Positions 1 through 11,823 of a DNA stretch of 11,823 nt are shown in pieces (position 1 is the first letter of the stretch; every line of letters starts with the position of its first letter). The notes under the pieces were generated by a model. That model made no database searches and was not told the DNA's origin. It saw only the letters and a list, made by a program, of their open reading frames with translations. The stretch is from NCBI GenBank assembly GCA_019136325.1, contig JAGVUJ010000042.1:1-11823 (forward strand). Direction: 5' to 3'. Position numbers and translations under genes: made by a program. This DNA is from Deltaproteobacteria bacterium. GTDB lineage: Bacteria; Desulfobacterota; Syntrophia; Syntrophales; Smithellaceae.

Positions 1-654
1 ATGGCTCAGGGATTCAAGGCCGCCCAACTGGGCTCCCCGGGTGTTGCCAGCAAGCAGATGATCGGCAGTGACCTTGTCCGCTACAATCCTTATCTCAAGG
101 TCATCCAGAATCCCTTGAAGAAAGATAAGGACCCCGTAGTGTTCGTTCCGGCTTTGTATCCCGACGTTTCCTTTATTCATTGTCATGCGGCCGACAAGTA
201 CGGCAACGCGTATATCTATGGTCCGGCGGTGAATGATCTGGCGATGGCCGCCGCCGCCCGCAAAGTCATCATCACCGCGGAAGAGATCGTGCCCGAAAGT
301 GATATTCGCTACAACAAGCAGGGGCAGATCATTCCGTTCTTTTATGCGGATGCCGTGGTCGAAATGCCGTTCGGGGCGCTTCCCGGAAGCATGCCCGGCT
401 GTTATTACTGGCCGAGGCAGTGGTGGGAAAAGTGCATGAGATGGGCCACCCTGACGGACGAAAATGCCAAAACATTTCTTGACGAATGGATTATCAATAT
501 CAAGGACCAGTTCGAATTTGTCGAAAAACTGGGCGGCGCGAAATGGATCGCCGAAGCCCGTCGCCAGACAAAAGCCGCCGAAGGTGATAATGAAGACATT
601 GATTTTTCTTACGAGGAATTTACCCTGAAGCATGATTCAGGACTCTACTACTAG
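1..654 (+). CDS. CoA-transferase alpha subunit, glutaconate CoA-transferase type (5' partial)
   Basis: This is the C-terminal two thirds of a class I CoA-transferase subunit A of the glutaconate CoA-transferase (GctA) type, which with subunit B moves CoA between carboxylic acids in the cytoplasm. The frame is open from base 1. The ATG at 1-3 aligns, from memory of GctA, near residue 110 of about 320, so roughly 100 residues lie outside the window and this ATG is probably internal. Visible family features are the segment FVPALYPDVSFIHCHAADKYGN (about residues 48-69), the following IYGP, and VIITAEEIV (about 89-97), matching the GctA core. The stop at 652-654 lies 13 nt before the beta subunit start, so the two are co-transcribed. 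The substrate cannot be told from sequence; an IpdA-like ring-cleavage role is an alternative. Its neighbours point to acyl-CoA degradation. Confidence 0.85.
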   Translation: MAQGFKAAQLGSPGVASKQMIGSDLVRYNPYLKVIQNPLKKDKDPVVFVPALYPDVSFIHCHAADKYGNAYIYGPAVNDLAMAAAARKVIITAEEIVPESDIRYNKQGQIIPFFYADAVVEMPFGALPGSMPGCYYWPRQWWEKCMRWATLTDENAKTFLDEWIINIKDQFEFVEKLGGAKWIAEARRQTKAAEGDNEDIDFSYEEFTLKHDSGLYY

Positions 655-667
655 AAAGGAGAAAACC

Positions 668-1456
668 ATGCGAGACTTAAATGCACCAGCCAATCCTCTG
701 GAAACATTGGCTTATATTATTGCGCAGCAGATTCACGATCACTCGATCGTATACATAGGAACAGGACTCCCCATGGTGGCGGGGATTCTGGCCAAGAAAA
801 CCCATGCCCCCAATATCACCATCGTCTATGAATCGGGAGGCCAGGACCCGATTGAGGGTGATATGCCCTGGTCGGTCGGTTGTCCCTTTACCTGGCGCAA
901 ATCACCGACTGTTATGGAAATGGCTTATTCCTTCGCCCAGTGTTATAACGGGTACGTCGATATCGGATTCCTTGGCTTCGCCCAGGTGGATATGTACGGC
1001 AACGTGAATACCCACATGATCGGCAAGGATTTTCATCATCCTAAAGTTCGTCTGACCGGCAGCGGCGGAAACAACGATCTTTCGTCGTTGATGAGCAATA
1101 TGGTTCTGGTCGGACTCCAGACACCGGACAAATTTCCCGAGAAAGTTGATTTCGTCACCTCGGTGGGACATTTGACCGGCGGCAATTCCCGCCAGGAAGC
1201 CGGTCTCATCGGCAACGGTCCGAGCGCAGTCATCAGCCCCTGGGGTGTTTATGATTTTCATCCGGTCAGTAAGCGCATGCGCGTCAAGTCCCTGACACCC
1301 GGTGTCACGTTTGAAATCGCGCAATCCCTGACCGGTTTTGAACTGCTCAAACCGGAAGGAGAAATTCCGCAGACGAAACTGATCACCGACGAAGCGTTAA
1401 AGATCATCCGCACTCAGGTGGATCCGCGCGGTGTTTTCACCACCATGCCGACATAA
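668..1456 (+). CDS. CoA-transferase beta subunit, glutaconate CoA-transferase type
   Basis: This 262-residue protein is the subunit B partner of the preceding gene. In the GctB family a glutamate near residue 54 forms the covalent CoA thioester; here E55 in VYESGG (residues 53-58) is at that place, so the active site looks intact. Other family features are GTGLPMVAG (31-39), the region around FLGFAQVDMYGN, and GSGGNNDLSS. The ATG at 668 is preferred because AAAGGAG lies just upstream at about 656-662; an in-frame ATG at 632 would overlap the alpha gene and has no ribosome site. Length matches the family (about 260-270). It forms an operon with the alpha subunit and is probably linked to the acyl-CoA dehydrogenase downstream. 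The substrate is unknown. IpdB-like hydrolase activity is a possible alternative. Confidence 0.88.
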   Translation: MRDLNAPANPLETLAYIIAQQIHDHSIVYIGTGLPMVAGILAKKTHAPNITIVYESGGQDPIEGDMPWSVGCPFTWRKSPTVMEMAYSFAQCYNGYVDIGFLGFAQVDMYGNVNTHMIGKDFHHPKVRLTGSGGNNDLSSLMSNMVLVGLQTPDKFPEKVDFVTSVGHLTGGNSRQEAGLIGNGPSAVISPWGVYDFHPVSKRMRVKSLTPGVTFEIAQSLTGFELLKPEGEIPQTKLITDEALKIIRTQVDPRGVFTTMPT

Positions 1457-1577
1457 CCGGTATACGGGAGATAGCCGGAATGGTAACGGGAGCGGTTTTA
1501 ACGCTGTCTGAAGATATGAAGTCGAGATGATGCAATGGCAATGTTTTTGGTAGAAATAGAAACATCAAAATCACAGT

Positions 1578-1593
1578 AATTAAAATTTTAATT
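1578..1593. repeat. 16-bp perfect AT palindrome before the usp ribosome site
   Basis: AATTAAAATTTTAATT is a perfect 16-bp palindrome ending 1 nt before the AGGAGG of the universal stress protein gene. It could be a protein-binding site or simply AT-rich leader sequence. No function is demonstrated. Confidence 0.4.
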
Positions 1594-1606
1594 CAGGAGG
1601 ACGATG

Positions 1607-2077
1607 ATGGAAAATACCAAAAAAATTCTGGCTGTTAGTTGGGTTACGCAGTACTGTCAGGCAACCGTGCGCGCAGCGATTGCGGTGGCGAGCAGATTTG
1701 ATGCCGAACTGTCCGTGATTCATGTCGTGGATACGCAATTGCTGCAGGGCTGGAATCTGCCCTTCAAGTTTCATGAAACAGAGCACCAGAAAGAGCTGGA
1801 ACGCATCAGAGCGGAGTTGAATACCATTGTCAATCGTGAGAAAAAGGAAGGGATGAAAGTCAAAACGGTTGTCAAGGAAGGCAATCCCGTTGAAGAGATA
1901 TTGAAGTATGTCGAAAAAGAGAAAATGGATCTTGTTGTCCTGCGAGAGCATGAAAAAAGCCGGCTCGAACAGTTTATGGTCGGCAGCAGCAACGATGAAA
2001 TCATCCGCAAGATGCCCTGTTCGATTTTGTTGTTGAAAAACGAGCCTTCGAAGAAAGGCGTCCGGTTTAAAGCTTGA
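1607..2077 (+). CDS. Universal stress protein (UspA family), degenerate nucleotide site
   Basis: This 156-residue single-domain protein has the Usp layout: a first beta strand KKILAV (5-10), SVIHVVD (36-42), a charged helix (about 58-80), VKTVVKEGNPVEEIL (85-99), DLVVL (108-112) and a closing GSSNDEIIRKMPCSILLL (126-143). ATP-binding Usps carry G-2x-G-9x-G-(S/T); here the first two glycines are R113 and E116 and only G126-S127 remain. The acidic residue usually following the first strand is also absent, so ATP binding is unlikely. AGGAGG at 1595-1600 sits 6 nt before the ATG at 1607; the ATG at 1604 is only 3 nt away and less likely. The gene lies between the CoA-transferase and the acyl-CoA dehydrogenase on the same strand, suggesting a role tied to acyl-CoA metabolism or energy stress. 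Confidence 0.85.
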   Translation: MENTKKILAVSWVTQYCQATVRAAIAVASRFDAELSVIHVVDTQLLQGWNLPFKFHETEHQKELERIRAELNTIVNREKKEGMKVKTVVKEGNPVEEILKYVEKEKMDLVVLREHEKSRLEQFMVGSSNDEIIRKMPCSILLLKNEPSKKGVRFKA

Positions 2078-2179
2078 TTTCGATACGAATGTCTGTTAAA
2101 GCCGGATCAATCAATGACAGCGTAAATTCAGGGGGGCAATGCGCTGATCGTTCAAACACAAGACGTAACGGAGCGCGGA

Positions 2180-2201
2180 TGTGATGGTTATGATCATCAC
2201 A
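2180..2201. promoter_or_regulatory. Inverted repeat upstream of the acyl-CoA dehydrogenase gene
   Basis: TGTGATG (2180-2186) and CATCACA (2195-2201) form a perfect 7-bp inverted repeat with an 8-nt spacer, about 42 bp before the acyl-CoA dehydrogenase start. It has the size and symmetry of a repressor operator. No matching sigma70 promoter was seen nearby, so the role is only inferred. Confidence 0.35.
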
Positions 2202-2243
2202 CGACGCGGAATAATGAACTGTTTTTAGTATAAGGAGTATCTG

Positions 2244-3962
2244 ATGAATTATTTAGTGCAGCCGAAAAAATATCAAAGTCTCATGGCTGATGAGGGTTCC
2301 AGGGCCGTCATGAACAAAACAATCGCTTTTTTCGAGAAGATGGGCAAAGAACGCCTGCTCGATGATTATAATAAGAAAGTCTGGTATCGCGAATTTGTTG
2401 ATTTCATTGGCAAAGAGCAGATTTTTGCCAAATTGCTGACGCCCAGCCAGTACGGCGGCGGCGATCCTGACTGCCGCTGGGACACCGCCCGCAACAGCGA
2501 ATACAGCGAACTGCTGGCTTTTTACGGTCTCGGTTACTGGTACTGCTTTCAGGTCAGCATCCTCGGATTGGGTCCCATCTGGATGAGCCCCAATGAAAAA
2601 GCCAAAAAGAAGGCTGCGGAACTGCTTAAGAAGGGCGCGATCTTCGCCTTTGGCCTTTCCGAACGCACGCACGGTGCGGATATCTATTCTACCGAAACAA
2701 CGCTGACACCGGCCAAGGATGGCACCTGGGTGGCCAACGGGGAGAAATATTACATCGGCAACGGCAACGAAGCGGAAATGGTCTCCACGCTGGGCAAGGT
2801 CAAGGACGGCACCGACGATTACACTTTCTTTGTCACCAATTACAAGCATAAAGCGTATGAACTGAAAAAGAACGTCATCTCGCATCAGGAATACGTTTCC
2901 AACTTTGCGCTTCATGACTATCCCATTACCGAAGACGATATTCTGTCCCGCGGGTCTCATGCCTGGGATTCCGCTCTCAATACCGTGAATATCGGCAAGT
3001 TCAATATCGGTCCGGCATCCATCGGCGTCGTGGAACACTGTTTCTACGAAGCCATTACCCATGCCGCCAACCGTATACTTTACGGCATGAGAGTGACCGA
3101 TATGCCGCATGTGCGCAAAAACTTCATGGATGCCTGGCTCAGGCTGGTTGCCATGAAACTGTATCAGCGGCGTTCTACCGATTATTTCCGCAATGCCAAT
3201 GAAAAAGACAGACGCTACCTGCTGTATAATCCCACCAGCAAGATGAAAGTGACCCTGCAATCGGAAGATGTCCTGAATCTGCTTTGGGATGTCATTGCCG
3301 CCAGGGGTTTCGAAAAAGATACGTATTTTCATATGGCCGCCGCCGATATTCGCGGGCCATCCAAACTGGAGGGCACCGTCCATGTGAACGTCCAGCTCAT
3401 CCGCAAATTCATGAAGAATTACTTCTTCAGTCCGGCCTCTTATGCTCCCGTCGCGCCTGATTTTTCCAGCAAAGACGATTTGTTCCTGTTCAATCAGGGG
3501 CCGACCAAGGGTCTGGGTTCTGTTCAGTTCCACGATTACAAACCTGTCTTTGAAGCCAGCAAACAGCTCCCGAATGTGGGCATCTTCATTCAGCAGATTA
3601 ATCTTTTCAAGGAAATGCTGGAGAAGGCCGGACCGGACAAGACGCAGGATATGGACCCGTCGTGGTCGCTGCCGCTGGGCGAAATGTTTTCCATCGTCGT
3701 TTACGGCCAGTTGATTCTGGAGCAGGCTGCGTTCGACAAGGTCGACACGGACATTATCAATCAGATTTTTGATTTCATGGTGCGGGATTTCTCGCGCTTC
3801 GCTCTTCAGATTTACGGCATGCAAAACACCAAAGACGATCAGCGGGCCTACTGCAAGGAAATCATGCTGATTAGAAGCCAGGGTGACGACGCGCAATACA
3901 ACAAAGTCTGGAAAGAATACGTTTTCACTTTAAACGGCGAATACACGATGAGTGAAAAATAG
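2244..3962 (+). CDS. Acyl-CoA dehydrogenase with C-terminal extension
   Basis: This 572-residue flavoprotein belongs to the acyl-CoA dehydrogenase family, which makes the alpha,beta double bond of acyl-CoA and passes electrons to electron-transfer flavoprotein. The N-terminal helical domain (about 1-130) is followed by the FAD/substrate signature FAFGLSERTHGAD (134-146), a variant of A-L-T-E-P-x-x-G-S-D with R for P and A for S. The beta domain runs to about 240 and the C-terminal helical domain to about 395. KLEGTVHVN (374-382) matches the Y-E-G-T region that carries the catalytic glutamate in many members, here E376. About 175 residues follow, an extension reminiscent of the VLCAD type. AAGGAG at 2232-2237 supports the start. 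The gene follows the CoA-transferase and usp genes and ends before a strong hairpin. The chain-length or ring substrate is unknown. Confidence 0.9.
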   Translation: MNYLVQPKKYQSLMADEGSRAVMNKTIAFFEKMGKERLLDDYNKKVWYREFVDFIGKEQIFAKLLTPSQYGGGDPDCRWDTARNSEYSELLAFYGLGYWYCFQVSILGLGPIWMSPNEKAKKKAAELLKKGAIFAFGLSERTHGADIYSTETTLTPAKDGTWVANGEKYYIGNGNEAEMVSTLGKVKDGTDDYTFFVTNYKHKAYELKKNVISHQEYVSNFALHDYPITEDDILSRGSHAWDSALNTVNIGKFNIGPASIGVVEHCFYEAITHAANRILYGMRVTDMPHVRKNFMDAWLRLVAMKLYQRRSTDYFRNANEKDRRYLLYNPTSKMKVTLQSEDVLNLLWDVIAARGFEKDTYFHMAAADIRGPSKLEGTVHVNVQLIRKFMKNYFFSPASYAPVAPDFSSKDDLFLFNQGPTKGLGSVQFHDYKPVFEASKQLPNVGIFIQQINLFKEMLEKAGPDKTQDMDPSWSLPLGEMFSIVVYGQLILEQAAFDKVDTDIINQIFDFMVRDFSRFALQIYGMQNTKDDQRAYCKEIMLIRSQGDDAQYNKVWKEYVFTLNGEYTMSEK

Positions 3963-4036
3963 GTCGAAAATAATTTTGCAATTTGGATACAGGGGATGAT
4001 CGCCTGATCATCTGGGAAAGGTCAATAGAAAATTTA

Positions 4037-4080
4037 AATGGTGCCGTCCGACGCTTTGTAAAACGCCGGGCGGCACCATT
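4037..4080. terminator. Bidirectional terminator-like hairpin between convergent genes
   Basis: Positions 4037-4050 and 4067-4080 pair as a 14-bp stem with one G-U pair and a 16-nt loop. It lies between the acyl-CoA dehydrogenase stop (3962) and the stop of the convergent M24 gene (4084), where a shared terminator is expected. On the - strand the stem is followed by a TTTAAATTTT-like tail; the + strand tail is weaker. Confidence 0.75.
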
Positions 4081-4083
4081 GGT

Positions 4084-5307
4084 TTAGGATATTTCCTCGA
4101 TGCCGAACGGATACTTCGACATCAGTTCGCAGCCGTCTTTGGTGATGAGAAGATCATTTTCATAACGGAAGCCGATATTGTCTTCCGGCGCGGCATACTG
4201 CATGGCCAGAACGACCATTTCATTTTCCTGGTACACGTGATTCGGATCGGTCCAGTAGGGCATGGCGGGATTGATCGTTGCGCCCACGCGCCATTCGTCG
4301 CCGAACATTCCGATGCCGTGTTCGCAGCCGGGCAGAATCTGAAATTCACAGTCGCGGGACCTCGCCAGATCGACCATGATTTCCACCAGCTTGCCGGGAG
4401 TGATTCCCGCGCGGTAATTATCCATCACGATCTGAACCAGCGCGATAAAATTATCCGCGTGCCAGCGCTGTTTTTTGGTTGCGGGTGCGATCAGGTAATT
4501 GTGTGAATGATCGCCCATCGTCAGTTTGAACAGCGAATGCAGATCCAGCATCAGCGGTTCGCCTGCTTTGATTTCCTTGGTGGTCGGAGGCGTACAGGCG
4601 CCTAAGCCCGTGCGGTATCCGCTGGAAATTTCATTCAGCCCCGCGAAATTCCATTCCGATACGCTACCCGCCTTGCGCATGGCCAGCGCGGCGATGCCGC
4701 CGATGACCGTTTCCGTCATGCCCTTGTAACCGCCGTTTTCCAGCGCGGCCCGACAGGCCTTGTGCCCTTCGTCCACCATCAGCGATGCGGTGCGGAAACG
4801 CTCAATCGTGCCCTTATCTTTGATGATGGAGAGACCATCAATGATGTCGTGCGCATTCACCCATTCGAAGCCGGGAAGGGCGTCTTTAAAATGCGTGAAT
4901 TCCCAATGCGTTAAATTTCCTTCCGCCGTGTACGTGGAAATACCGTCCTCATAGCCGATGCGTCCCTTCTTGAGGCCGAGATTGAGTTTGATGAAATTGG
5001 TAATCGCGGCAACCTGATCAATGCCCTCGAGCGGGCCATAGGCGCTCATATGATCCCTGTCGAGCCACGTTTCATCGGCCACGCGCGCAGCATCGATGAT
5101 GAACGTAAAAAAAGTCGGCAGCCCCTCGGACGGAATAATGATGTAACTTCGCCAGGGGCAGAAGGCATCCATGATGAAACTCATGGTGCGGATGCGCGAA
5201 CCGAGGTACACGTCAATGCCGCGCTTGTGCATTTCGGCCTGAATCGCTTTAACGCGTCCCGGATTGTCAATGTAATACTTGTCGTTCGGATCTAATGTTC
5301 TGGACAT
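4084..5307 (-). CDS. M24-fold (creatinase/aminopeptidase, DddP-like) enzyme with incomplete metal site
   Basis: This 407-residue protein has the two-domain plan of the M24 'pita-bread' family: a creatinase-like N-terminal domain (about 1-160) and a catalytic domain (about 165-400). Canonical M24 metal ligands are D, D, H, E, E. Here D255 (MLDLHS), D266 (GDHSH), H330 (CEHGIG) and E383 (RYENDLLIT) are in place, but the fourth ligand, the glutamate of the M-V-x-x-x-E strand, is replaced by M369-Q370. The proton-shuttle histidine after the substrate loop also looks absent (GLGAC, 234-238). The segments GDEWR (336-340) and the end DLLITKDG...KYPF resemble DddP-type members as I recall them. GGGAGG 6 nt upstream supports the start. 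It could be a peptidase, a creatinase-like C-N hydrolase or a lyase; the reaction is not predictable. It is transcribed alone from the promoter at 5556-5584. Confidence 0.82.
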   Translation of the reverse strand: MSRTLDPNDKYYIDNPGRVKAIQAEMHKRGIDVYLGSRIRTMSFIMDAFCPWRSYIIIPSEGLPTFFTFIIDAARVADETWLDRDHMSAYGPLEGIDQVAAITNFIKLNLGLKKGRIGYEDGISTYTAEGNLTHWEFTHFKDALPGFEWVNAHDIIDGLSIIKDKGTIERFRTASLMVDEGHKACRAALENGGYKGMTETVIGGIAALAMRKAGSVSEWNFAGLNEISSGYRTGLGACTPPTTKEIKAGEPLMLDLHSLFKLTMGDHSHNYLIAPATKKQRWHADNFIALVQIVMDNYRAGITPGKLVEIMVDLARSRDCEFQILPGCEHGIGMFGDEWRVGATINPAMPYWTDPNHVYQENEMVVLAMQYAAPEDNIGFRYENDLLITKDGCELMSKYPFGIEEIS

Positions 5308-5362
5308 ATTGGGCCTCCCTTTTATATTGAGTTGGAATCATTCTTGGACCTTCATTCGGACT

Positions 5363-5409
5363 GTCCGGCACAACCGCGGGTTTGAGCGCTTCCTCATGCC
5401 ATGCCGGAC
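5363..5409 (-). promoter_or_regulatory. Leader hairpin upstream of the M24 gene
   Basis: GTCCGGCA (5363-5370) and TGCCGGAC (5402-5409) form a perfect 8-bp stem with a 31-nt loop in the leader RNA. The stem begins 1 nt after the stop of the short leader ORF, so translation of that ORF could affect its folding. There is no U-run, so a simple terminator is unlikely. Confidence 0.35.
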
Positions 5410-5410
5410 C

Positions 5411-5434
5411 TCAATGGGTGAATAGCTCTGACAT
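5411..5434 (-). CDS. Possible 7-residue leader peptide (MSELFTH)
   Basis: ATG at 5434-5432 is preceded by AGGAGG with a spacing of about 7-8 nt, a better ribosome site than many real genes here. The frame encodes only MSELFTH before a TGA. It lies in the leader of the M24 gene, directly before the 5363-5409 hairpin, as a regulatory uORF would. It could also be a chance or decayed start; no run of one amino acid suggests classic attenuation. Confidence 0.35.
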   Translation of the reverse strand: MSELFTH

Positions 5435-5555
5435 GCTGATGCCTCCTGCGTTGTCTGATTTTGAGCAGCATGGGCATGCCGCCCGGGCGGATTTGGTTTA
5501 CGGATTGCGCCTCTTCTTCAAAACGATTGCATAACGAATCTCTTTAGCGGTCGAA

Positions 5556-5584
5556 ATTATAAAAGCAAAAGGCGGGTATGTCAA
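5556..5584 (-). promoter_or_regulatory. Consensus sigma70 promoter for the M24 gene
   Basis: On the - strand TTGACA (5584-5579) and TATAAT (5561-5556) are separated by exactly 17 nt, a perfect match to both consensus boxes. The expected start is near 5549, giving a leader of about 240 nt before the ATG at 5307. So perfect a promoter suggests strong basal transcription with control in the leader. Confidence 0.75.
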
Positions 5585-5632
5585 CTTACATTATTCGGCG
5601 GGAATTTGCGCCTGCGTTATATGAAATGACAA

Positions 5633-5672
5633 AGGGCGCAAAGACCTTTTTTGATTCCGGTCTTTGCGCCCT
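5633..5672 (-). terminator. Terminator-like hairpin after the chalcone-isomerase-like gene
   Basis: GGGCGCAAAGACC (5634-5646) and GGTCTTTGCGCCC (5659-5671) pair perfectly, with one further A-T pair outside and a 12-nt loop. It starts about 25 nt after the stop of the - strand gene ending at 5697. The tail on the - strand (TTTGTCATTT) is only moderately U-rich, so termination may be imperfect. Confidence 0.65.
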
Positions 5673-5696
5673 GAATATGAAATGAAACCGTTACGC

Positions 5697-6260
5697 TTAC
5701 TTGCCGAGCATCGAAGCTTTTAATTTATTATCGGCCGGTTTGTTGCTGAGCCATATTCCGAAAAGGATTTTTTTGAAATCCAGACCTTTGGTCGTACTCT
5801 TCAACTGTTTGTTCTTGTAGGCTTTGAGGCCTTCGCCAGGAATGTAAATCATATCATACACATCACCCAGTTTAATATTATCCTTAAAAACCCCGACAAA
5901 GGCGTCGATCCTGTCTTTGTAAGGCGCCATGTTGCCGTTCGTCGAGTTTTTAAATCCTTCCATGACGGTTTCTTTCATCTTGTCGCTCGTGATCATATTG
6001 GAAATCACCTGGAGTTTGATCGCCATCGGTTCATCGGCGTTCATGATCGCGTTGGCGTCGCCGCCTTTCTGTTTAAGATACAGCCCGCTGACATAAACCT
6101 TGATGAAATACTTTGTTCGGATACCGGCTCCGTTTAACACCAGCGTATCGCTGCCGGCGGCGAGAGTGTCCGGCATATTGATTCCGCCGACTTCTTTTGC
6201 GTAGCCTGCGGAAGTAAGGATAAGGACGACTGAACACAACAGCAATAATTTTTTAAACAT
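5697..6260 (-). CDS. Secreted chalcone isomerase-like domain protein
   Basis: This 187-residue protein begins with a typical signal peptide: MFKK, a hydrophobic core LLLLCSVVLILTSAG and a probable cleavage after AYA-type residues (about 21), so it is likely periplasmic. The mature part has the bacterial chalcone-isomerase-like pattern: GINMPDTL (26-33), LVLNGAGIRTKYFIKVYVSGLYL (40-62), a middle helix with MKETVMEGF (95-103), KLGDVYDMIYIPGEGL (130-145) and the closing FKKILFGIWLSNKPADNKLKASMLG. The bacterial members have no settled enzymatic function; flavonoid isomerisation is not implied. GAGAGG upstream of the ATG supports the start. The gene has its own promoter (6360-6389) and a hairpin downstream, so it is probably monocistronic. 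Confidence 0.85.
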   Translation of the reverse strand: MFKKLLLLCSVVLILTSAGYAKEVGGINMPDTLAAGSDTLVLNGAGIRTKYFIKVYVSGLYLKQKGGDANAIMNADEPMAIKLQVISNMITSDKMKETVMEGFKNSTNGNMAPYKDRIDAFVGVFKDNIKLGDVYDMIYIPGEGLKAYKNKQLKSTTKGLDFKKILFGIWLSNKPADNKLKASMLGK

Positions 6261-6359
6261 AATGACACCTCTCTTTTTTATTTTAGCCTTTCACAGGCCG
6301 GGTTGATATTGATGATGAAATTGTTTCGATGATGGAGAGCTTCCGCTCTTCCGGGCGGC

Positions 6360-6389
6360 AGTATAGGAACAAAGCCGCTGCCCTGTCAA
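6360..6389 (-). promoter_or_regulatory. Sigma70 promoter for the chalcone-isomerase-like gene
   Basis: On the - strand TTGACA (6389-6384), an 18-nt spacer and TATACT (6365-6360) give a near-consensus sigma70 promoter located between the peroxiredoxin stop (6407) and the gene at 5697-6260. The expected leader is about 90 nt. Confidence 0.7.
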
Positions 6390-6406
6390 TTGTTAATTTA
6401 AAAGGT

Positions 6407-6880
6407 TTATTGCCGGCCGACCTGCGTTTCGAGTAAATCAAGCAGTTCTTTGTTCTCCGGTATATCGGCCATCGAATGGCCGTAATGGACGAAGCGAACC
6501 TTGCCGGACTTATCCATGATAACCTGCGCGGGCATCCGGCCCAGTTTGAAAATCTTGACCTCCTGGCCGTACAATTTCAACACATGATGTTCGGGGTCGG
6601 GCAGGCCGACAAACGGCAGCTTTTCTTTCTCCCAGTATTTCTTAAACGCCTCGGCGTTTTCCGGCCCGGCGACGAGGATCTCCGTATCCAGCGCAACGAA
6701 TTTATCATAATCCCGGCGCAACTGCGCCATATGCGCGCGGCAGAACGGTCAGATAAAACCGCGGTTGAAAACCAGCATTACATTCTTTTTGTTTTGATAA
6801 TCGGCAAGCGAAACGCTTTTGCCGTTGAAATCATTCAACGTAAAATCCGGCGCCTGAACGTTTAATTCAACCTTTGGCAT
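6407..6880 (-). CDS. Peroxiredoxin-like (AhpC/TSA) selenoprotein, Sec44 encoded by in-frame TGA
   Basis: Read through one TGA at 6751-6749, the gene encodes a 157-residue thioredoxin-fold peroxiredoxin. The N-terminal part MPKVELNVQAPDFTLNDF, the strand NVMLVFNRGFI (33-43), then U44-P45-F46-C47-R-A-H-MAQLRRDY and the later KLGRMPAQVIMDKSG are contiguous family sequence; relatives have Cys at residue 44, the peroxidatic position in GF-x-C-P-x-C. The ATG at 6880 has AAGGAGG 9 nt upstream, whereas the ATG at 6730, the first after the TGA, would remove the whole active site. A SECIS-like hairpin lies at 6715-6728. The codons on both sides of the TGA keep the frame without indels, which argues against a pseudogene. 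A TATAAT at 6928-6923 may be the -10 box, with no good -35. It probably reduces peroxides using small thiol partners; the partner is unknown. Confidence 0.88.
6715..6728 (-). promoter_or_regulatory. Putative bacterial SECIS element of the peroxiredoxin-like gene
   Basis: In the mRNA GGCGC pairs with GCGCC (5 bp, plus an outer U-G pair) around the loop AGUU. The loop begins 26 nt after the UGA and has G as its second base, fitting the published bacterial rule of a short stem with G in the first two loop positions about 16-37 nt from the UGA. A competing GCGC/GCGC pairing slightly upstream is possible, so the exact fold is uncertain. Confidence 0.6.
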
Positions 6881-6993
6881 GACGTCTGTCCTCCTTAGTT
6901 CTTAATACCTGTACAACAGATAATTATAAAACTATTTTTGACGAACAAACAGTTATTTAAGGTTCAATTCCAATGATTACTAGTGGTACGAAT

Positions 6994-7158
6994 TTAAATA
7001 ATAATTATTTTTTCAAAAATATCAATTTCATCATAATCAGGATTAAAGTCTTGCATTATTTTGTTTTTCCTCTTGAATGCATCAATGGAATTATAAAAAA
7101 CTTCTGGTTCTTGAATGAATCCTTTTTTGACTAATGTTAAAATCCATATCTTCTTCAT
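6994..7158 (-). CDS. Small 54-residue protein translationally coupled to the nuclease-like gene
   Basis: ATG at 7158-7156 overlaps the TGA of the upstream gene as ATGA, the usual sign of translational coupling, and the frame runs 54 residues to a TAA at 6996-6994. The protein starts MKKIWILTLV, has an acidic/aromatic middle QEPEVFYNSIDAFKRKNK and ends DYDEIDIFEKIIII. It has no signal peptide or recognisable domain; the alternation of strand, helix and strand-like segments suggests a small folded alpha/beta protein. Its base composition matches the nuclease-like gene. Being in one coupled unit, it may be a partner, inhibitor or immunity factor of that gene; this is inference from position only. 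Confidence 0.65.
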   Translation of the reverse strand: MKKIWILTLVKKGFIQEPEVFYNSIDAFKRKNKIMQDFNPDYDEIDIFEKIIII

Positions 7159-8066
7159 TTTGTTATTCCTATTGTTCTGTTAAACCAACTATACACATCT
7201 TTATATTCCAAGAAATTACAAACATCACTTAACCCACTACGTTTAAAAGTTGGTCGATTAATTTGTTTCAGGAAAAGAGACCGCCTGACGTCATTGGAAA
7301 CAACACTGAACTTCGGTTTCAATTTCTGCTCTGTTAAATACAAATCATTGAATCTAAGCAAGCCTGAATATATTGGAGTAGAATGTTCAACTTCAAACAT
7401 AGCCTTCAATTCACTGGAGCCCCTTTGCATCCATAAAACATCAATTTCTTTGATAATGTTATCCATATTCCCGTATCTTGATGGTAATTCATTCATACAA
7501 ATAAATTTTTTTGTTAGGTTCCAATCTAATTTGTTTCTATCATTTTGTGGTATCCATACTTCATATCCTTTTGTTGCCCCTATAGAACCAATAAATGTTT
7601 GTATTTGAGAATGAGTAAAGTCAGGTAAAATTGTTAATTTGTTTGCATCAATGAGGTTATCTAAATTGTTCCATCCATAAAAACTTTCTATGTTAAAGCG
7701 TCCTGCATTTGCAATATAAAGTTCTGTGCCATCACCGAGATAAACTTGAGCTTTGTATTGTCCATCTGAAGCAGGTGAAATGGAATTGAATACCTCTTCA
7801 AATTCAGAAAATGGAATAAAAATTGGTTCAGATTGTGTATCCCATAAAAAACAGATGACGGAGTTGTATCCTTCAAGTTGTTTTAGGTCTGATTGTCTTA
7901 AACCATAGAAAGCCTGGTTTCTTCCATGTATTTTTGAATATCTTATATAAACACGTGCCGTGCCGTTGGAAATGTCAAACAAAGATAAGCTGCCAGATAA
8001 TTGCTTTGGTTTGCCATATTTCTTTGCCAATTTTTCTAAACAAGATGTTTTGATTGGATTTGGCAT
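7155..8066 (-). CDS. Putative restriction-like nuclease, PD-(D/E)XK type
   Basis: This 303-residue protein has no family I can name with certainty. Its C-terminal half has the pattern of a PD-(D/E)XK nuclease: a helix ending IGSIGATKGYEVWIPQNDR (159-177), then I-D209-V-L-W (208-212), and F-E225-V-E227-H-S-T (224-230), followed by PIYSGLLRFNDL. The D-x15-E-x-E arrangement has Glu in the usual Lys position. The N-terminal half (VYIRYSKIHGRNQAFYGLR, 39-57; ICFLWD, 71-76; PIFIPFSEFEEVF, 81-93) could be a DNA- or modification-recognition domain. No methyltransferase is adjacent, so a solitary type IV-like or modification-dependent enzyme, or another defence nuclease, is plausible. The ATG at 8066 lacks a well-spaced ribosome site (AAAGGA about 16 nt away). 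Its AT-rich composition suggests transfer. Confidence 0.6.
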   Translation of the reverse strand: MPNPIKTSCLEKLAKKYGKPKQLSGSLSLFDISNGTARVYIRYSKIHGRNQAFYGLRQSDLKQLEGYNSVICFLWDTQSEPIFIPFSEFEEVFNSISPASDGQYKAQVYLGDGTELYIANAGRFNIESFYGWNNLDNLIDANKLTILPDFTHSQIQTFIGSIGATKGYEVWIPQNDRNKLDWNLTKKFICMNELPSRYGNMDNIIKEIDVLWMQRGSSELKAMFEVEHSTPIYSGLLRFNDLYLTEQKLKPKFSVVSNDVRRSLFLKQINRPTFKRSGLSDVCNFLEYKDVYSWFNRTIGITK

Positions 8067-8113
8067 GAATCGAATCTGGTTATCCTTTATATATTTTATA
8101 TGTTTATTGTTTT

Positions 8114-8142
8114 ATAATAACAATATGGAGAGTTAGAGTCAA
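8114..8142 (-). promoter_or_regulatory. Sigma70 promoter of the AT-rich cassette
   Basis: On the - strand TTGACT (8142-8137), a 17-nt spacer and TATTAT (8119-8114) form a good sigma70 promoter about 48 nt before the nuclease-like start. The cassette therefore does not rely on transcription from the DsbA-like gene upstream. Confidence 0.6.
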
Positions 8143-8222
8143 TACAATCATTTGGATATACTAGACATTAAGACAATAATTAGAAAGCACTGTTCTTGAA
8201 AATAATTCTATAGATATTTAAG

Positions 8223-8819
8223 TTATTTAATTTTATCGAGAAGATTGCGGAAGGTTTCCATCGGCTGGGCGCCGGTGATTTGATATTTGTTATTGATGAT
8301 GAACAGGGGAATGCCCGTTAAACCAAGCAACTCTCCTTCTTTTCTGGCTTCATTTAGACGAGACGCATAGCGGCCGTCGTGTATGGCGGTGATAATTTCC
8401 TTTTCATCCAGTCCGCTTTTTTTCGCAACGGCGGCGATCACATCCGGCTTGCCGATATCCAGTCCCTCCGTAAAGTACGCATGAAACATGTTTTCATGGA
8501 ACGATTCGTATTGGCCTCGATCGCGCGCATATTCGGAGGCCATCAGCGCCAGTCTGGAATTGGAAAGAATGGAATGCGTGTTGAACACAACGCCGACTTC
8601 TTTGCCTCGCCGGCGGAGTTGTTCGTAAAAAGAAGAAAGATCATAACCCTTGAATCTTTCGGCAAGCATCATTCCCTGGGGCGGTGTCTCCGGATGAAGT
8701 TCGAAACTCACCCAGTGATCGTTGATGTCGTATTCTTTTTTCAGCCGGTCGACAATGCCCTTGCCGATATAACAGAAGGGTCAGATATAGTCGGAATATA
8801 TTTTAAAGGTGATGGTCAT
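8223..8819 (-). CDS. DsbA/FrnE-like thioredoxin-fold selenoprotein, Sec13 encoded by in-frame TGA
   Basis: Read through one TGA at 8783-8781, the gene encodes 198 residues of a DsbA-family (FrnE/2-hydroxychromene-2-carboxylate isomerase-like) oxidoreductase. MTITFKIYSDYI (1-12) is the first strand, then U13-P14-F15-C16-Y-I-G-K, where relatives read S-D-x-x-C-P-x-C-x-x-G. After the TGA come HWVSFELHPETPPQG (about 34-48), the inserted helical domain, and the cis-Pro loop GLTGIPLFIINNKY near the C terminus. The ATG at 8819 has GAGG 5 nt upstream; the GTG at 8711, the first usable start after the TGA, would lose the active site. A SECIS-like hairpin lies at 8749-8767. No signal peptide is visible, so it acts in the cytoplasm. 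It is probably a reductase or isomerase of disulfides; the substrate is unknown. Confidence 0.88.
8749..8767 (-). promoter_or_regulatory. Putative bacterial SECIS element of the DsbA-like gene
   Basis: In the mRNA UCGGCAA pairs with UUGUCGA (7 bp, one G-U) around the loop GGGCA. The loop begins 21 nt after the UGA and starts with G, a close fit to the bacterial SECIS rule. Confidence 0.68.
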
Positions 8820-9017
8820 TTGATGCCTCGAAGAACACAATTCACTATACTCGCATTTATCTCATTTTCACATCATTTTTTGTTAAAGAAAAATTGCAAT
8901 ATGTGATAAAAGAAAGTAATACTGACTGCAATCAAAAATTATTTTCGTATCGGATAAAATTTTAGCGCTGTAGATTACCTGTTGTTTTTGAATTGGTTTG
9001 ATCGGTCCAGAGGAAGC

Positions 9018-9039
9018 CTGTGTGCCATGTGCAACACAG
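9018..9039. repeat. Short inverted repeat before the SpoIIAA-like gene
   Basis: CTGTGT (9018-9023) and ACACAG (9034-9039) form a 6-bp inverted repeat with a 10-nt spacer, about 50 bp before the start at 9090, in the 270-bp divergent intergenic region. It might be an operator. Nothing else in 8820-9089 was recognised apart from a TATAGT that could be a -10 box for the DsbA-like gene. Confidence 0.25.
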
Positions 9040-9089
9040 AAAGATGAGTTCCAGTCATATTCATTCTGAACGTTGAGAGGGGATGCACG

Positions 9090-9476
9090 ATGCGCGACGA
9101 GATTATAGTGGAGTATAATCAGGAAGGTTATGTTCATGCAAGACACTACGGTAAAAACAATTACGACATTTCGCTTGAAGTGTGGCGGCGTATCATGGCG
9201 CTATGCAAGGAACATAATTGTTTAAAAATTCTCGGAGAGAACTTCACCACCGAAGAACTCTCCACAATGGACGCTTTCAATCATCTCGATATATTGGCAT
9301 TGGTTGGACTGACCCCGCAGCATCGTGTCGCCTGGGTGAATCATGTGAAGGAAGCCGCCCGAGGGCTCGAATTTGTTGAGACGGTTGTCGTGAAGAATCG
9401 CGGTTTGGCAAACGGCAAATTATTCCAGACGATTGAAGAAGCCAAACGCTGGTTGCTGGGTTCAGAGAACGGATAG
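9090..9476 (+). CDS. SpoIIAA/STAS-like protein
   Basis: This 128-residue protein resembles the SpoIIAA-like (STAS/SEC14-type) small proteins: an N-terminal strand pair (EIIVEYNQEGYVHARHYG, 4-21), a helix with SLEVWRRIMALCKEHNCLKIL (28-48), a middle LDILALVGL (66-74), the strand FVETVVVKNRG (95-105) and the C-terminal helix LFQTIEEAKRWLLG. The N-R-G then F-x-x-x-x-E-A-x-x-W-L ending is typical of that group. Members are of unknown function and may bind small hydrophobic ligands or partners. GAGAGGGG with about 8 nt spacing supports the ATG. It is the first gene of a likely + strand operon; 78 bp separate it from the next gene. The family assignment is moderate. Confidence 0.6.
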   Translation: MRDEIIVEYNQEGYVHARHYGKNNYDISLEVWRRIMALCKEHNCLKILGENFTTEELSTMDAFNHLDILALVGLTPQHRVAWVNHVKEAARGLEFVETVVVKNRGLANGKLFQTIEEAKRWLLGSENG

Positions 9477-9554
9477 CGGAAGGTTGCAACGGCATCCGGG
9501 AGGCGCCGCCGGGATCAGACGCTTTACATCTTTAAAATCAACACGGAGAGAATC

Positions 9555-9992
9555 ATGGGAAAAAGCGAACAGGCCATGGCCAAATTTGTGGGCGGTTTCA
9601 ACTGCGCGCAGTCGGTTCTTTTTGCTTTTTGCGACGATCTCGGCCTGGATAAAAATCAGGCGCTCAAGATGTCCTGCGGGTTCGGCGCGGGCATGGGCAG
9701 AAAGGAAGAGGTTTGCGGAGCTGTGAGCGGCGGCATCATGGTCATCGGCGCCAAATACGGCCGGGGAGAAAATGACGAACGTCAATCAACAGAAGTGACT
9801 TACGCAAAAATCAGGGAACTGATGGACCGATTTTCTCAGCAACACGGCACTTATCTTTGCCGCCGGTTGCTCAGAGGCTGTGAACTGACGACCGATGAAG
9901 GTCAAAGGATTTATCTGGGCAACGATTATTTTAATAAAGTATGCAAGCCGTGTGTGAAGAGCGTGGTGGAAATACTTGAAACAATCATCTGA
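9555..9992 (+). CDS. C_GCAxxG_C_C family protein (Cys-rich putative redox protein)
   Basis: This 145-residue protein matches the C_GCAxxG_C_C family by its spaced cysteines: C17 (FNCAQSVL), C26, C41 (SCGFGAGMGR), C54 in EVCGAVSGG (52-60), and C102, C109, C130, C133 (VCKPC). The family is thought to be redox- or metal-related, but no function is settled. The C-terminal C-x-x-C and the glycine-rich centre suggest cofactor or metal binding. GGAGAG at 9545-9550 gives the start. Its last 17 nt overlap the next gene's proposed TTG start, which indicates coupling. In this redox-flavoured neighbourhood it might be a partner of the thiol oxidoreductases, but that is inference. Confidence 0.82.
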   Translation: MGKSEQAMAKFVGGFNCAQSVLFAFCDDLGLDKNQALKMSCGFGAGMGRKEEVCGAVSGGIMVIGAKYGRGENDERQSTEVTYAKIRELMDRFSQQHGTYLCRRLLRGCELTTDEGQRIYLGNDYFNKVCKPCVKSVVEILETII

Positions 9993-10695
9993 GCCACCCG
10001 CAAAATTTTATCTGATTTCGCTTGTCAGCTTTTTAATCACGGCCTATCTGGCCGTGGTTCAGAAATGGTCGGTGCAGGAATTCTGCTGGTGCGTGTGGCT
10101 GGCCGGACTTTTTTACTCGTGGACGTGCGTTGTCACGGCGGCCATTCAAATTATGCTGACGGTTCGAACGAACAAGAAATACTATGATGCGGAGGCGCCG
10201 TTCGTTCAAAGCATTTCTCCCGAAGTGTTCGCGCTGGTCATTATTCCGGTGACCGTACTGGCGGGATTTGTCGCGCTTTATATTTATTGCTGGCTGTTTT
10301 CCTTCTACGGCCTTTTCTTGTCCGTATTTGCCGAGATGCCACCCCTGGATCTTTTCGGGCGAAACGGTTTTATCAATTCCGATTTTTTCACGCCGGTGAC
10401 ATATCTGGCGGAGCGGTACTGGCCGATGATTGCTGCCACTCTCATTGCGAACGCCGATGATTTCATGCGTCGCCAGGCCTGGGAACGGATGGTGCTGCCA
10501 TTCAGAGACAATCAGATTCTGCGCATTCACATCATGACGCTTGCTCTGCCTTTTTTGATGATGCTCACCTGGGCTTTGTTCCGGGAGGCGTATCAGCCGT
10601 TGACAATTGTCATTCTCATTGGTATTTTCTTTTTGATTCCAAAGAAACAATTCAAAAGAAAGAATATCGTCGATCATGATTCAGAACATGAATAG
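9976..10695 (+). CDS. Integral membrane protein of unknown function
   Basis: This 239-residue protein has about five or six hydrophobic segments: roughly 11-28, 37-62, 84-118 (long, perhaps two), a weak one at 147-160, 182-202 and 209-222. The C terminus is basic then acidic (KKQFKRKN...DHDSEHE), so probably cytoplasmic. Aromatic motifs such as FCWCVWLAGLFYSW (36-49) recur in uncharacterised bacterial membrane families; I cannot name one with certainty. The apparent start is TTG at 9976, overlapping the upstream gene by 17 nt, with only a weak GGTGGA before it. Its 3' end overlaps the methyltransferase gene by 20 nt, so it is part of the operon. No catalytic residues are evident. Confidence 0.75.
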   Translation: MKQSSEPPAKFYLISLVSFLITAYLAVVQKWSVQEFCWCVWLAGLFYSWTCVVTAAIQIMLTVRTNKKYYDAEAPFVQSISPEVFALVIIPVTVLAGFVALYIYCWLFSFYGLFLSVFAEMPPLDLFGRNGFINSDFFTPVTYLAERYWPMIAATLIANADDFMRRQAWERMVLPFRDNQILRIHIMTLALPFLMMLTWALFREAYQPLTIVILIGIFFLIPKKQFKRKNIVDHDSEHE

Positions 10696-11239
10696 AAAGA
10701 TTATTAAACAGACGCCTTTCGGCCCGGTTGCCATTATCTGGTCTGTTTCCGGTAAATTGCCGAAGATTGTCAGTGTTTTACTTTCCCGCCCGGTATTGCC
10801 GGCGGAGAAGCAGGCGGCCGGACTTTTCCCTGAATCAAGAATATTGTCCTGCGCCGAAATCGATCGTGTCGCTTCTTCCATCAAGGCCTATCTTGAGGGG
10901 GAGGATATAACGTTTAATCTGAATCTCGTTGATTTGTCGCCTTTCTCAAAATTCCAGCAGTCGGTTTTGCGGGCGCAGCATGCGATTCCGCGAGGCAGGG
11001 TCAGCACGTACGGACTCATTGCCGCTCACGTGGGAGCGCCCGGTGGCGCGCGGGCGGTGGGCAATGTGATGGCGGGAAATCCTTTTCCCCTGATTGTGCC
11101 CTGTCACCGAACCATTCTTTCCAACGGCCGTCTCGGCGGTTTTCAAAGCGGATCCGAAATAAAGAGAGCCTTGCTGAAAAACGAAGGGGTGATGTTTGAT
11201 GAAGCGGGGCGCGCTGTCTGCCCTCGATTTCATTTTTAA
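10676..11239 (+). CDS. ogt: Methylated-DNA--protein-cysteine methyltransferase (O6-alkylguanine repair)
   Basis: This 187-residue protein directly reverses O6-alkylguanine by moving the alkyl group to its own cysteine. The active site P142-C143-H144-R145 is followed by the SNGRLGGFQSG loop (149-159). The DNA-binding part has FQQSVLRAQHAIPRGRVSTYG (93-113), a typical helix-turn-helix lead-in, and ARAVGNVMAGNPFPLIVPCHR, with R126 as the likely arginine finger and N130 conserved. The N-terminal half (1-85) is a less conserved alpha/beta domain. Length fits the Ogt/MGMT type without an Ada domain. It overlaps the membrane protein gene by 20 nt and has no strong ribosome site at the first ATG (10676) or at the second (10688), so it is probably translated by coupling. 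The gene ends 17 bp from the convergent response regulator. Confidence 0.92.
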   Translation: MIQNMNRKIIKQTPFGPVAIIWSVSGKLPKIVSVLLSRPVLPAEKQAAGLFPESRILSCAEIDRVASSIKAYLEGEDITFNLNLVDLSPFSKFQQSVLRAQHAIPRGRVSTYGLIAAHVGAPGGARAVGNVMAGNPFPLIVPCHRTILSNGRLGGFQSGSEIKRALLKNEGVMFDEAGRAVCPRFHF

Positions 11240-11256
11240 GAAATATTTCTCCGGCC

Positions 11257-11700
11257 TCAATGTATCAAAGGAGGCGGTTTATTCCATGAAAGCCAGTAGA
11301 GCCCCAGCACTTTAACCGCTTCCATGAACTCATTAAAATCCACCGGCTTGGGGATATAGCTGTTGGCACCCAGTGTATAGCTGGCGAGCAGATCTTCATT
11401 CCGGTTGGAAGAGGTGATAACGACGACCGGCAGCAGTCTGGTCATCTCGTTTTGACGGATGGCCGTGAGCACTTCCAATCCGTTGATCTTGGGAAGATTT
11501 AAATCCAGCATGATGAGTACAGGCAGGTCTTTTATATCCCGTTCCTGATACATTCCCCTGCCAAAAAGATAATCCAGGGCTTCCACACCGTTCGGGGCGA
11601 CGATCAACTTGTTGACGATATGATTTTTCTTGAAAGCGCGAAGGGTTAATTCAACGTCGTCGGGATTATCCTCCACCAGAAGAATAACTTTATCTTTCAT
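11257..11700 (-). CDS. Single-domain response regulator (CheY/Rcp1-like)
   Basis: This 147-residue protein is a receiver domain only. It shows the acidic pair at VEDNPDD (9-15), the phosphoacceptor D66 in MLDLNLP (64-70), the T96 switch position in VVITSSN (93-99) and the conserved K118 in YIPKPVDF (115-122). The C-terminal GLYWLSWNKPP is typical of the Rcp1-like group that works with phytochrome-like or other hybrid kinases. The ATG at 11700 has AAGGAG about 8 nt upstream and is preferred over an in-frame start at 11772, whose extra 24 residues are basic and unlike the family. A histidine kinase ends 78 bp upstream on the same strand and is the likely partner. With no output domain it must act by protein contact. 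Confidence 0.9.
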   Translation of the reverse strand: MKDKVILLVEDNPDDVELTLRAFKKNHIVNKLIVAPNGVEALDYLFGRGMYQERDIKDLPVLIMLDLNLPKINGLEVLTAIRQNEMTRLLPVVVITSSNRNEDLLASYTLGANSYIPKPVDFNEFMEAVKVLGLYWLSWNKPPPLIH

Positions 11701-11721
11701 CGTAAATCTCCTTCGTCGTCG

Positions 11722-11749
11722 GTGAACGGTGAATCGTGAATATTGAAAG
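11722..11749. repeat. Degenerate 7-bp tandem repeat between kinase and regulator
   Basis: GTGAACG, GTGAATC, GTGAATA and TTGAAAG follow one another as four imperfect 7-bp units in the short gap between the kinase and response regulator genes. It may be a heptamer microsatellite remnant or spacer sequence. Confidence 0.45.
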
Positions 11750-11778
11750 GTACAGCGTATTTCGTATTGCACGCTTTT

Positions 11779-11823
11779 TCATTCCGGAAGTGTGAAGAAG
11801 AAGGTCGCGCCTTTTCCCGCTTC
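11779..11823 (-). CDS. Histidine kinase, C-terminal end only (partial)
   Basis: The last 14 codons before a TGA at 11781-11779 read EAGKGATFFFTLPE. G-x-G-A/T-x-F-x-F-T-L-P is the usual end of a sensor kinase ATPase domain (HATPase_c, G2 box and last strand). The rest of the gene lies beyond the window. It sits directly upstream of the response regulator on the same strand, as expected of a two-component pair. Confidence 0.75.
   Translation of the reverse strand, partial: EAGKGATFFFTLPE

Follow-up and report, generated by a model that had tools for sequence, protein, structure and literature searches.

An in-frame TGA in the frnE-like gene of a Smithella-like desulfobacterote, very probably read as selenocysteine

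DsbA-like selenoproteins with a UXXC motif were reported in 2005 from the Sargasso Sea survey, where they were filed under COG2761 (PMC1088965). A paper from 2006 listed four DsbA-like sequences, including those of Anaeromyxobacter, Desulfovibrio desulfuricans and Desulfotomaculum reducens, and stated that in most selenoprotein families the selenocysteine (Sec) forms are far fewer than the cysteine (Cys) homologs (PMC1794560). A count in 2016 gave 45 genes in 41 organisms (PMC5029168), and a DsbA-like 'form 1' stands in a selenoprotein list of 2026 (PMC13188914). DsbA-like UxxC selenoproteins are already known, and the gene described here adds a further one. It lies on the minus strand of contig JAGVUJ010000042.1, positions 1 to 11,823, which was analysed as a whole (hereafter the window). 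In a Smithella-like desulfobacterote, this frnE-like gene very probably encodes a genuine selenoprotein, with UGA decoded as Sec to give a FrnE-type product.

The frnE-like gene, its UGA codon and the downstream hairpin

The frame opens with an ATG at 8819-8817, closes with a TAA at 8225-8223 and is interrupted solely by the TGA, with 12 codons (ATG included) upstream and 185 downstream (Table 1). Purine-rich stretches similar to the GAGG of the window also precede the start in many relatives, as judged by eye. An earlier reading of the window from its sequence alone (the sequence-only reading) had described the same arrangement of a Shine-Dalgarno sequence, an ATG, 12 codons and a single in-frame TGA at residue 13 (8783-8781), and these coordinates were borne out. 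With Sec placed at the TGA, the product contains a full-length DSBA domain (PF01323, residues 6-194, 123.3 bits at a cut-off of 25.6) and the active site U13-P-F-C16, C16 being its only cysteine, and it thus carries both PF01323 and the UxxC motif of DsbA-like form 1. No NCBIfam family scored above its cut-off for this protein. FrnE of Deinococcus radiodurans was the closest PDB sequence (3e-22) as well as the closest solved structure (Z 23.5), in line with the earlier assignment as DsbA/FrnE-like, and the FrnE motif, given as CP(W/F)C (PMC8945050), is matched by UPFC with the first Cys as Sec.

The codon at the homologous site was determined in relatives. The survey took in 168 loci, of which one lacked the site and 38 were dropped as identical copies around it. 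The 129 distinct loci left carried TGA (113), TGC (9) or TGT (7), and no TAA, TAG or TGG was read at the site in any of them. The sequence-only reading had named TAA or TAG in orthologs (here 0 of 129 loci) as the finding that would speak against it, and had expected C-P-x-C in Cys homologs, which show C-P-F-C. The in-frame TGA is aligned with the Cys of homologs amid conserved coding sequence, and the codons ahead of it are also conserved as protein among relatives. The first DNA-level set of relatives comprised 26 loci (23 TGA, one TGT, two TGC). An order-wide search of 155 genomes yielded 51 matches in 50 genomes, 50 of them with exactly one TGA; the only stop-free match (L113, genome G143) is truncated by a contig edge and begins with residue 14, past the site. 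Among 395 genomes sampled evenly across the phylum, 71 had one match each at an E value of 1e-25 or better, 60 with one TGA and 11 stop-free, the latter reading TGC or TGT at the site. In the order of Tumebacillus, a match occurred in five of 14 genomes (three TGA, two Cys). These samples share genomes, and every search began with a Sec-form sequence, so that the proportions do not amount to a census.

The TGA is followed by a hairpin of 7 bp, with a gap of 13 nucleotides (nt) to the stem and of 20 nt to the loop. The 7-bp hairpin with the loop GGGCA had been recognized by the sequence-only reading, and its figure of 21 nt fits the distance to the loop, not to the stem. All seven pairs are formed in 24 of 24 TGA genes (the window and the 23 TGA loci of the first relative set). 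Over the 129 loci, TGA genes form a mean of 6.65 and Cys genes a mean of 3.44 of the seven pairs (rank test p 2e-13, which takes no account of relatedness), and the pairing in TGA genes drops to 1.8 to 3.6 when the 3' arm is shifted by 1 to 3 bases. Among close relatives, no other stretch of six codons in the gene is as conserved in codon choice as that at positions 5 to 10 past the TGA, codon conservation of the hairpin block (codons 4-11) exceeds that of the rest of the gene (rank test p 0.002), and the synonymous sites over the hairpin are frozen. In a sister group with a UPWC motif, the stem has different letters in the same register; here, 25 two-sided changes were counted among 61 genes versus a maximum of 10 in 1000 shuffles, the shuffling again taking no account of relatedness. 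The UPWC stem is rebuilt through compensatory changes (covariation). By comparison, a hairpin with a G-rich apical loop just 3' of the UGA, i.e., a bacterial selenocysteine insertion sequence (SECIS) element, is present. The case for it lies in the comparison among relatives; neither single-sequence folding nor Rfam is supportive. Two TGA copies of another branch (L147 and L167) showed no pairing in the common register; by eye, they have a longer hairpin that is offset from it by a few bases.

Selenocysteine machinery and alternative readings

Of 18 loci surveyed for the Sec machinery, 17 were in genomes searchable for it, and 14 genomes served as controls. SelB scored above the cut-off in 17/17 relatives' genomes (controls 2/14), SelA in 16/17 (controls 1/14) and tRNA-Sec in 17/17, the weakest match (4.8e-9) being that of G014. 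Absence of this machinery, which the sequence-only reading had put forward as a possible objection, is therefore not what the relatives show; its overall interpretation as a DsbA/FrnE-like selenoprotein with U-P-F-C is supported by the relatives' codons, the hairpin and the machinery. The frame, Sec site, hairpin, fold and relatives' machinery, all determined computationally, point to Sec decoding in the source organism.

Several observations weigh against this reading. The hairpin is not the minimum-energy fold of the single sequence (z -0.7 to -1.0 in three stretches), and at the gathering threshold Rfam gave no match within the window. In the UPFC clade, defined by at least 43% identity (49 loci: 45 TGA, 4 Cys), 39 TGA genes have all seven pairs and six of the 45 have 6, while the four Cys genes retain 5, 6, 5 and 5 pairs and have thus decayed only slightly; the low mean of the Cys genes is driven by distant copies. 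Among all 113 TGA genes in the common register, 25 have 6 pairs and five have 5 or fewer, one of these five being the third TGA copy of the Tumebacillus order (L080) with 5/7. The tRNA-Sec model also passed in 5/14 controls and is less specific than SelB or SelA, SelA was not found in G017, and SelB occurred in 13/14 genomes of the Tumebacillus order, Cys carriers included, so that genomes with the Sec form cannot be told from those with the Cys form by their machinery. For the source organism itself, the machinery is deduced from relatives, the nearest being Smithella and Syntrophaceae. Finally, the predicted structure is the best of five models (score 86.8), and the other four scored 51 to 75.

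These points have to be weighed against other readings of the TGA. If it were a real stop, the working protein would begin at a later GTG, TTG or ATG and would have no CxxC site. This is how most database relatives are predicted: a protein search gave 532 matches, and among the 120 listed, two of which are short frames of the window itself, 92 begin downstream of the site and the remainder have W (17) or C (11) at it (the W and C proteins being assessed at protein level). The sequence-only reading had called the selenoprotein unannotated, which fits these entries; as 92/120 of the nearest relatives listed are without the active site, function is not readable from them. A later start, however, would remove strand 1 and the active site from the predicted fold, would leave the conservation of the pre-TGA codons as protein unaccounted for, and does not agree with a residue that is swapped only for Cys in relatives, with no TAA or TAG in those read. 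It is so improbable as to be hardly tenable. A recent nonsense mutation (pseudogene) or a sequencing error would fit a gene that is intact apart from a single in-frame stop, but TGA stands at the homologous codon in 113/129 loci from many assemblies, and the chance of either is negligible.

The 17 W-bearing proteins among the 120 listed could also suggest that TGA encodes tryptophan (Trp) in the source organism (code 4 or 25), as a gene finder with such a code prints W; these proteins would rather be TGA genes in which TGA was printed as Trp. Against Trp, TGA terminates 4/14 window genes listed, in two of them right after a Pfam match that completes its profile (Usp 4-141 of 141, C_GCAxxG_C_C 1-118 of 118), codons other than TGA at the site all specify Cys and none is TGG, and the hairpin would be left unexplained; the probability of this reading is vanishingly small. 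Two of the 14 window genes read through a TGA, the frnE-like gene and a Prx-like gene, both with U-P-F-C; for the remaining 12, TGA was treated as a stop when their limits were set, so that they could not reveal an in-frame TGA. A selenoprotein might finally act as a GST-kappa or HCCA-isomerase-like enzyme instead of in thiol-disulfide exchange, a similarity that is seen in the match to 3fz5 (4.9e-4). FrnE is nearer by sequence (3e-22) and has the Z of 23.5, and UPFC corresponds to the FrnE motif, which makes such an activity very unlikely. A FrnE-type selenoprotein therefore remains the preferred reading.

Neighbouring genes and distribution of Sec and Cys forms

Table 1. Features of the frnE-like locus and its neighbours in the window.
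Feature	Position	Strand	Description and basis
frnE-like selenoprotein gene	8819-8223	-	198 codons + TAA; translation with TGA as U, Pfam DSBA, FrnE as closest PDB sequence
In-frame TGA, read as selenocysteine	8783-8781	-	codon 13; codon survey of 129 loci
GAGG, likely Shine-Dalgarno	8829-8826	-	6 nt before ATG; sequence
Bacterial SECIS hairpin	8767-8749	-	arm TCGGCAA 8767-8761, loop GGGCA 8760-8756, arm TTGTCGA 8755-8749
Prx-like gene	6880-6407	-	AhpC-TSA PF00578; TGA codon 44 (6751-6749), U-P-F-C; same strand as frnE-like gene
Low-GC gene	7155-8066	-	303 codons, 33% GC; PADLOC REase_II match 1.6e-9
C_GCAxxG_C_C family gene (PF09719)	9555-9992	+	no in-frame TGA; divergent from frnE-like gene

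The Prx-like gene, downstream of the frnE-like gene, was also found linked on the same strand in the distinct genomes of seven close relatives (loci L001, L002, L003, L005, L006, L007 and L083; L085 duplicates L002, and L086 duplicates L006). The linked Prx-like codon is TGA in the first six, and L083 has a stop there whose letters were not read. The spacing between the two genes is about 90 nt in L003. The distant L024 is linked as well, with a Prx-like gene encoding U-P-F-A and the stop of one gene overlapping the start of the other. In this locus, a shortened DsbA-like gene (3615-4064, 136 codons after the TGA) is located ahead of an open Prx-like TGA gene. In L021, a full-length DsbA-like gene (from 5001) precedes a damaged Prx-like gene; the partial Prx match in damaged frames was not counted as linkage. 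The survey covered 62 loci, some being second copies of one genome, and the frnE-like gene itself could be placed in 59 of them (all but L021, L023 and L113); no Prx-like match occurred within the available flank in 48/59, although many flanks are short and the absence is accordingly weak. The linkage appears to characterize a single clade, with one additional distant case that resembles an operon, and not to be a family-wide trait. It could be imagined that the FrnE-type and Prx-like U-P-F-C proteins act together in syntrophic and sulfate-reducing bacteria as the two components of a cytoplasmic selenium redox relay, one reducing or recharging the other; we consider this unlikely.

Between the two selenoprotein genes, which have 47-50% GC, lies the low-GC gene. 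It matches a type II restriction enzyme model and had no Pfam match, and no methylase family was matched by the window genes scanned; the REase_II-like gene is probably an insertion. The divergent C_GCAxxG_C_C gene lies upstream of the frnE-like gene both in the window and in four distinct relatives (L001, L005, L006 and L007), and its family has selenoprotein members elsewhere (PMC13188914). The largest other neighbour cluster was an open reading frame of 307-323 amino acids in 6/25 loci.

To follow Sec and Cys forms, a quick tree of 139 rows was used, comprising 128/129 loci (L024 was too short and left out) and the 11 Cys database proteins, which are known at protein level (Sec 112, Cys 27). 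Its root serves for drawing only, and several long branches were flagged. The Sec/Cys label requires 13 changes on this tree, at least 7 of them being forced by well supported branches, compared with about 25 for random labels. Within the UPFC clade, 15/62 rows are nested Cys rows, with the DNA seen for 4 of the 15; they fit a repeated loss of Sec, a direction suggested by the nesting. With Cys copies nested among Sec copies, the family lends itself to studying the exchange of Sec for Cys and its causes.

In Tumebacillus lacus (G011), a Firmicute, the TGA, hairpin, SelB, SelA and tRNA-Sec are all present, and this copy may represent a transfer between phyla. Within this order of Firmicutes, L022 (5001-5591) and L078 (G170) have the Sec form with the full hairpin and two close relatives have Cys; L080 is a more distant TGA copy. 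Among plasmids, 787 records matched, all under 60% identity; the best 20 of these were at 30-34% and comprised 13 entries annotated as DsbA family oxidoreductase, one annotated as a polyketide protein and six unannotated ones. Among viral contigs, 13 pattern matches contained no relative.

Proposed mechanism and comparison with known systems

Strand 1 of the predicted structure starts at residue 3, which leaves no room for a signal peptide, and a cytoplasmic location of the product is therefore probable. Translation would start at 8819, and Sec would be put in at UGA codon 13 from tRNA-Sec, delivered by SelB as it binds the hairpin, the loop of which starts 20 nt downstream. Sec13, positioned just ahead of helix 1, would attack a substrate disulfide or other oxidized thiol, and Cys16 would resolve the mixed selenide-sulfide to give a Sec13-Cys16 bond. 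As the C-terminal CXXXXC of D. radiodurans FrnE is absent, this bond would be reduced by another protein, probably of the thioredoxin system. A reductase/isomerase direction, the reductant, the substrates and the partners are all put forward as suggestions, and so is the functional cytoplasmic Sec oxidoreductase proposed by the sequence-only reading.

In the open-access literature searched, no paper was found for selenoprotein with Smithella or for selenoprotein with DsbA and Desulfobacterota. Neither the placement with FrnE, nor the proportion of Sec forms in Desulfobacterota, nor the link between DsbA-like and Prx-like selenoprotein genes was met in the passages of this literature that were consulted, and the selenoprotein-operon section of the 2026 review names other gene pairs (PMC13188914).

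Of the systems described, FrnE of D. radiodurans (DR_0659; 5cp1, 5cnw) shares the DsbA-type fold with the window protein at 27% identity over 197 aligned residues. It differs in that the window protein has Sec for the first active-site Cys and lacks the C-terminal extension with CXXXXC; some FrnE members are also described without this motif, which is thus not defining for the subfamily (PMC8945050). The published DsbA-like form 1 has PF01323, UxxC and a downstream SECIS in common with the window gene, a likeness drawn from its description and not from aligned sequences. The UPWC DsbA-like TGA genes of Desulfobacterota (61 distinct loci) share the TGA at the homologous codon and the hairpin register, and differ in their motif, in the hairpin letters and by an identity of only about 29-38% to the window protein. 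The Prx-like thiol:disulfide oxidoreductase selenoprotein (UxxC, PF00578) shares U-P-F-C and belongs, with its AhpC/TSA domain, to another family. The 60/71 Desulfobacterota matches with TGA contrast with the 2006 statement that Sec forms are rarer, a share that holds for part of the family and not for all DsbA-like proteins because close relatives are favoured by both the E-value threshold and the use of a Sec-form query. To the known DsbA-like selenoproteins, the present analysis adds this predominance of Sec over Cys among Desulfobacterota matches, several switches between Sec and Cys, copies in relatives of Tumebacillus and, in one clade, a linked Prx-like UPFC gene.
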